A model generated the notes under the pieces. That model did not search any database. It was not told the DNA's origin and worked only from the letters and a program-made list of their open reading frames with translations. This document shows positions 17,206-42,077 of a stretch of 64,000 nucleotides of DNA, piece after piece. Within the stretch, counting starts at the first letter, position 1. Each line of letters starts with the position of its first letter. This stretch comes from Bolinopsis microptera (Eukaryota > Ctenophora > Tentaculata > Lobata > Bolinopsidae). A program made the position numbers and the translations under genes. The stretch is from the NCBI RefSeq assembly GCF_026151205.1, contig NC_087075.1, positions 310,001-374,000 of the forward strand, in the 5' to 3' direction.

Positions 17206-17371
17206 TTAGTACTTGTAATGTTGACTCTTGAAAGGCCCGGTTCGGTTTATGTTAAGGAATGCCGCCTGCTCCCGAGTTAATTCGGTAATGTGAGCGTTAA
17301 ACACGGTCAAGTGAAGTTGTGCAACATACTCATCCATTTTCTTGGGCAGTAGATACACATCCGCCTTATAC
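17206..17371 (-). CDS. AHCYL1: AHCYL terminal exon
   Basis: Acceptor AATTACAG, stop TAA at 17208-17206. 166 bases. Encodes [20 protein letters not shown] and ends [10 protein letters not shown]. The C-terminal Lys/Tyr pair of the SAHH family, which reaches into the NAD site of the partner subunit, is kept. Confidence 0.96.

Positions 17372-42077: not shown

Follow-up and report, generated by a model that had tools for sequence, protein, structure and literature searches.

Tandem arrays copying splice sites across exon borders of an AHCYL gene, and of other genes, in the ctenophore Bolinopsis microptera

The window analyzed here, a 64,000-nt stretch of the Bolinopsis microptera genome, holds an AHCYL gene on the minus strand (17206–51137) in which minisatellites run across exon borders, placing the real splice site at the end of a row of its own copies. 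Such a locus raises two questions: is the copying of splice sites peculiar to this gene, and are exon borders special places for tandem arrays? The first-pass annotation had proposed that a process shared among the borders of one gene, such as slippage seeded at splice-site microhomology, or else a genome-wide habit, lay behind the arrays.

A GT-AG model of 13 exons (Table 1), the first of which was found by tblastn with the deposited B. microptera protein P0001, translated to a sequence identical to that 490-residue protein, and P0001 was likewise the best match when the joined exons were compared with proteins (100% identity, 100% query coverage). At all four border-crossing arrays the deposited protein takes the exon-proximal copy of the splice site, and ordinary introns alone suffice for it, a result with a bearing on intron gain by tandem duplication. 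The genome was annotated with BRAKER using RNA-seq and Iso-Seq (PMC10232365), which is presumably where P0001 originated. About 67 residues of the Mnemiopsis AHCYL orthologue, lying between exons 4 and 5, are absent from P0001 and from the window; a search with the Mnemiopsis segment found no exon (best E 0.73), and the assembly probably dropped one AHCYL exon at this place.

Table 1. Coding exons and tandem arrays of the AHCYL gene, in positions of the window. Numbers of splice sites include the real one; the slash marks the exon border.
Feature	Position	Strand	Relation to border	Remarks
Coding exon 1	51024..51137	-		tblastn with P0001; model identical to deposited protein
Exon 2	41972..42077	-		model identical to deposited protein
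Exon 3	41522..41612	-		model identical to deposited protein
Exon 4	41297..41396	-		model identical to deposited protein
Exon 5	36901..37003	-		model identical to deposited protein
Exon 6	34869..35006	-		model identical to deposited protein
Exon 7	24737..24872	-		model identical to deposited protein
Exon 8	23564..23648	-		model identical to deposited protein
Exon 9	22748..22813	-		model identical to deposited protein
Exon 10	21316..21416	-		model identical to deposited protein
Exon 11	18838..18943	-		model identical to deposited protein
Exon 12	18390..18550	-		model identical to deposited protein
Exon 13 and stop codon	17206..17371	-		model identical to deposited protein
33-bp array, 4.8 copies	50882..51040	-	across exon 1 donor; 5 donors CAG/GTGAGGTTAT	11 codons, in frame
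36-bp array, 28 copies	34987..35993	-	across exon 6 acceptor; 28 acceptors TGCAG/TT	12 codons
57-bp array, 20 copies	24833..25994	-	across exon 7 acceptor; 20 acceptors TGTCAG/GTATAC	19 codons
31-bp array, 13.8 copies	20895..21330	-	across exon 10 donor; 14 donors GTAAATATCC	reading through gives TAA immediately
40-bp array, 3.2 copies	36769..36897	-	stops 3 nt from exon 5 donor border
32-bp array, 18.8 + 198.7 copies	25994..34856	-	stops 12 nt from exon 6 donor border	split by insert 26600–28479
31-bp array, 30 copies	23668..24613	-	stops 19 nt from exon 8 acceptor border
45-bp array, 11.5 copies	20380..20901	-		adjoins 31-bp exon 10 array
C-rich 20–21-bp array	17519..18151	-	147 nt from exon 13	in intron 12

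Four of the 24 AHCYL exon borders were crossed by arrays, all of them minisatellites by their head-to-tail arrangement, their periods (31, 33, 36, and 57 bp) and their 93–100% matches. The first-pass annotation had seen three of the four, those at the exon 10 donor, the exon 7 acceptor and the exon 6 acceptor, and had missed the 33-bp array, which takes in 17–20 coding nt of exon 1. Its counts of about 14, 20, and 27 decoys came within one of the 13, 19, and 27 copies that stand beside the real site in the 31-, 57-, and 36-bp arrays; at the 57-bp array the coding part is longer than the 33 bases it had given, at about 40 nt (border at 24872/24873). The 36-bp array (border at 35006/35007) includes 20 coding nt and keeps the full CCTTGCAGTT in 25 of its 28 acceptors, its frame broken solely by two 35-bp copies; AAG/GTAAGC occurs on its plus strand too. 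A single open frame runs through all copies of the 57-bp array (24733–25992), each unit of which also carries a donor-like CAAG/GTAAAC, as judged by eye. The 31-bp array (border at 21315/21316) includes 15–17 coding nt, and one of its 14 units reads GG at the splice dinucleotide, with a GT 8 nt further on owing to an 8-nt insertion.

Tandem repeats made up 59% of the 34-kb AHCYL gene (53% without the insert in the 32-bp array) vs. 13.7% of seventeen 10-kb stretches elsewhere in the genome (170 kb), of which two adjoin the window and fifteen were set by fixed coordinates. Four more AHCYL arrays stop short of an exon border, by 3, 12, 19, and 30 nt, bearing out the earlier description of arrays beginning 10–20 bases from exons. 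Intron 6 (9,996 bp) consists almost entirely of two arrays, the 57- and 32-bp ones adjoining directly at 25994, and one insert; the insert's open frame (26583–28319, plus strand) had no Pfam match and by eye resembles the C-terminal portion of a non-LTR retroelement that may be 5′-truncated. The 31- and 45-bp arrays join at a common GGATATT (20895–20901); a deletion fusing two arrays through such a 7-bp match would leave this appearance. The consensus unit of a 50-bp array at 39598–40875 includes TTCTACAG, which resembles an acceptor on the plus strand, the strand opposite AHCYL.

Whether four crossings constitute an excess within AHCYL depends on the null model. When whole array blocks were placed randomly on the gene, 12–13 borders were expected inside arrays, more than the four seen, because arrays fill over half of AHCYL and exons exclude them. 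When arrays were shuffled within their own introns, 0.35 border contacts were expected vs. four (P = 1.5e-4), and seed units placed on the present gene gave 0.27–0.54 expected crossings (P = 5e-5 to 0.0024). The fairest of these nulls collapses every array to one unit, representing the gene before expansion; here 0.98–1.25 crossings were expected (P = 0.012–0.03), or 1.48 vs. three seen for exons 2–13 alone, and arrays crossing or lying within 30 nt of a border numbered eight vs. 2.0–2.7 expected (P = 0.0002–0.003). Because the gene was picked for its arrays, we take these P values as a reason to look elsewhere and nothing beyond that.

Other genes were sampled by profile searches of the genome, the exon pieces being chosen before any arrays were viewed. 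For the kinesin motor, 107 of 109 matches were taken (two full-length matches were left out), giving 195 borders of which 187 could be located; one acceptor (L050) was manually reassigned to its exon-proximal copy, while two locus pairs with identical scores (on C13 and C11), apparently recent duplicates, were both counted. Twenty-three of 35 chaperonin matches, in four multi-exon genes, and 13 AHCY exon pieces, in two genes, jointly gave 65 located borders (two not located), and 13 of 73 myosin matches gave 23 (one not located). A border was counted as copied if the 14-mer spanning it recurred within 7–120 bp with at most one mismatch.

By this measure, 12 of the 275 located borders outside AHCYL were copied in tandem (4.4%, CI 2.3–7.5%): 10 of 187 in kinesin genes, one of 65 in the chaperonin and AHCY set, the one being in AHCY, and one of 23 in myosin genes. 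An additional kinesin border (L080), with a second copy 158 bp away, lay outside the 120-bp bound and was left out. Among the clearest cases were kinesin acceptors before FSFIDLAGSER (L051), with four visible copies 49 bp apart, and before GGNSMTLMIA (L088), with eight copies; a myosin donor (L096) with seven copies in view, 40 bp apart; and the AHCY gene on C9, where a 13-bp array holds seven ATTG/GTGAGT donors. The second AHCY gene, on C2, had no array near its exons, and no border-crossing array was found in the four chaperonin genes over the 23 matches taken. Translated from the exon-proximal site, the kinesin exons gave recognizable kinesin motor sequence. Since the genes were chosen regardless of arrays, these results uphold the idea of a genome-wide habit and remove the restriction to one gene, although AHCYL remains array-rich relative to the sample (4/24 vs. 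12/275 borders, Fisher P = 0.03). Genes seem to differ in their proneness to arrays, as in two kinesin genes whose sampled windows show six edges (C2:22.504–22.518 Mb, L047–L052) and four edges (C12:14.428–14.435 Mb, L076–L078) no more than 40 nt from an exon border.

The suggestion of a shared process fared less simply. Plain array coverage showed no peak at the splice site: in the kinesin profile, recurrence stood at 7–11% in introns between +30 and +170 and dropped to 5.3% at the border itself and to 2.1% at −20, with none at the tested positions from −27 to −70. Coverage is a poor guide to where arrays originate, because long arrays inflate it away from their origin, and we therefore took, for each border, the first array encountered and recorded its edge on the exon side. 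Twenty-four such edges lay in −31..+40 vs. seven in +40..+140, a rate ratio of 4.2 (P = 2.4e-4), with ratios of 3.9 and 3.7 at other length cut-offs (P = 1e-4 and 1.1e-3); as the kinesin windows extend 180 nt into the intron, deep edges are detected somewhat less readily in this comparison. Edges cluster by gene, three kinesin genes accounting for 15 of the 31 that lie less than 140 nt from a border, and pooling the borders therefore makes the P values optimistic. Taken by gene, 11 were near-dominant, two deep-dominant and one tied (sign test P = 0.004). Compared with the 170-kb background, array segments of at least 60 nt had edges near borders at 1.11 vs. 0.37 per kb, about threefold. The background array density predicted 3.1 crossings among the 275 borders vs. 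the 12 seen (P = 9e-5); taking every short recurrence as a seed raised the expectation to 6.4 and left a weak excess (P = 0.03). We therefore regard the excess of array edges near exon borders as real, with moderate support. Combined with coverage that has no peak, it leaves mutation bias and differential survival inseparable.

The results are best read as a tendency of the whole genome to form minisatellites, for the most part neutral, which at exon edges either arise more often or persist better. More specifically, we favor, with modest confidence, an account in which the arrays are locally born minisatellites of an array-making genome, the exon-proximal site works, the decoys are near-neutral and the border excess comes chiefly from survival. 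Given a high general rate of tandem duplication across the genome, a seed of 13–57 bp that happened to span an exon edge would be duplicated and expanded, the splice site being copied along with it. We infer that the exon-proximal copy remains the site in use and that the decoys, which would lie in the intron and mostly be spliced out with it, are neutral or nearly so. Arrays would be purged inside exons, which would cut them off at the border, and tolerated in introns, and the excess would then reflect survival in the main, not preferential birth at the junction. We favor survival over birth bias because complete deletion of an array anchored on a working splice site would break the gene.

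A rather unlikely alternative, though the strongest one, is that splice junctions are birth hotspots, where splice-site sequence, a nucleosome edge or a co-transcriptional R-loop makes short tandem duplications more frequent, with expansion following. The 3.7- to 4.2-fold density of edges within 40 nt of borders relative to deeper intron, and the threefold density relative to background, would follow from this, and three of the 12 crossing arrays (L053, L062, L086) have just two copies in view, as fresh duplications would. Coverage, however, lacks the peak at the site, and donors and acceptors are affected alike with no common unit apparent. The role given earlier to splice-site microhomology was not supported at the two seeds that can be read, both by eye: the cleanest, that of the 36-bp AHCYL array, whose ends are clean, shows 1 bp of microhomology, and that of the 13-bp AHCY array shows 3 bp (GTA).

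That chance alone is at work, with many arrays, short introns and an AHCYL that is merely array-rich, seems improbable to us. Coverage that is flat to falling toward the border fits such a view, as do the four crossings on the collapsed AHCYL gene, which are weakly unusual, but the edge-rate P values of 1e-4 to 1e-3 over three length cut-offs and the gene-level sign test speak against it.

It is less probable still that arrays have been retained for useful in-frame isoforms made from decoys. Three of the four AHCYL units are whole codons, and each decoy copy used in the 33-, 36-, and 57-bp arrays would lengthen the protein by 11, 12, or 19 residues, at exons 1, 6, and 7, the 57-bp array staying open through all its copies. 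Against this, decoy read-through meets TAA in the 31-bp AHCYL copies, directly after the first decoy, and, by eye, in the 13-bp AHCY copies; and the repeat peptides of the AHCYL arrays were found in none of 134 proteins, which include 120 listed AHCYL homologues of 7,995, the isoform with all 57-bp copies being beyond the length limit of the search. Selection on the reading frame of array units was likewise rejected, periods divisible by three occurring in five of 16 crossing arrays, as chance predicts. The splice dinucleotide was intact in 15 of 16 crossing arrays, among the copies picked up by the search. This is no evidence of selection, because few losses are expected at an estimated divergence of about 1% per base and the search favors intact copies.

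The least probable explanation, to which we give very little weight, is that long-read consensus or gap filling created or inflated tandem copies: the assembly was made with wtdbg from PacBio reads, gap-filled with TGS-Gapcloser and polished with pilon (PMC10232365), and part of the window is visibly noisy (about 37.8–39.8 kb), but all four AHCYL crossing arrays lie outside that stretch, three of them (all except the 33-bp array) have distinct inter-copy variants, and similar arrays recur at unrelated loci. The noisy stretch itself (about 37750–39790) resembles unpolished reads, with homopolymer smears and imperfect copies of the 50-bp repeat that turn perfect at about 39790, and is probably a gap fill.

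Repeats that carry splice sites are familiar from introner elements, in which one repeated family is spread over many genes. The arrays described here share with them the combination of repeat and splice site and differ in that the 57-bp unit occurs at its own locus alone: no match elsewhere in 264.65 Mb came up in a DNA search that passes over simple repeats and very frequent words, and for this unit a dispersed introner-like element was rejected on this ground. Human introns, too, have reportedly come from tandem arrays, in work ascribed to Zhuo in 2007. Most work on runs of identical splice sites has used engineered constructs, whereas in B. microptera natural, repeated rows of equal donors or acceptors would make the rule of choice readable from long cDNA, and the copied sites are natural test cases for how a cell chooses among equals.

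The kind of array is already known. Human duplicated genes are described as having internal tandem repeats at exon–intron boundaries, with 27 intron modifications, alternative splicing and novel introns (De Grassi and Ciccarelli, 2009; PMC2812944). Those repeats resemble the present ones in having minisatellite units of about 30 bp that cross exon–intron borders, the array overlapping exon and intron; they are reported with about four copies on average, RNA support and recent paralogs, whereas the B. microptera arrays reach 28 copies, occur in ordinary genes at about 4% of sampled borders and are known from DNA. In potato, a duplication across an intron–exon border is described as having made a new intron (PMC4974935); there too the duplicated segment crosses the border with branch site, acceptor and exon start, whereas the deposited AHCYL protein needs no new intron and its array is much longer. 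The Caenorhabditis elegans minisatellite CeRep25B, statistically linked to multiply spliced regions (PMC4039745), is similarly an intronic minisatellite tied to regions of splicing, but is presented as one repeat sequence clustered on two chromosomes, whereas the B. microptera units are unrelated to one another and built from each gene's own splice sites. In the literature surveyed, which consisted of article listings with abstract openings, we found no description of arrays that copy splice sites in a ctenophore or of copying this frequent, and the extent of the copying appears new.

If the near-exon excess were confirmed genome-wide, it would inform the question whether arrays arise by mutation more readily at junctions or find shelter there. 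We consider it possible, if doubtful, that exon–intron junctions are preferred birth places of minisatellites in this ctenophore and that, with the sampled 4.4% (CI 2.3–7.5%) holding genome-wide, thousands of its splice sites are rows of near-identical copies. Those rows would then form a natural collection for the study of competition between splice sites and, close to the base of the animal tree, a lasting supply of sites from which introns could shift or be gained.

Elsewhere in the window, two arrays of 318-bp units at 7986–8774 and 12644–13721 (99–100% matches within each) flank a retroelement frame (9446–12673, minus strand, RVT_1), and the second of them may consist of tandem promoter units of that element. 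A pure (ACCCTG)45 microsatellite (51732–52002) lies beside a 15-bp array, near a TSR2-like gene (52496–53053, minus strand, PF10273). A 192-residue open frame at 1526–2104 (minus strand) had no Pfam match and three relatives among ENA records at 62–95% identity, marking it as a conserved gene. This gene and the TSR2-like one look single-exon, their homologues being of similar length, and so supply no further borders.
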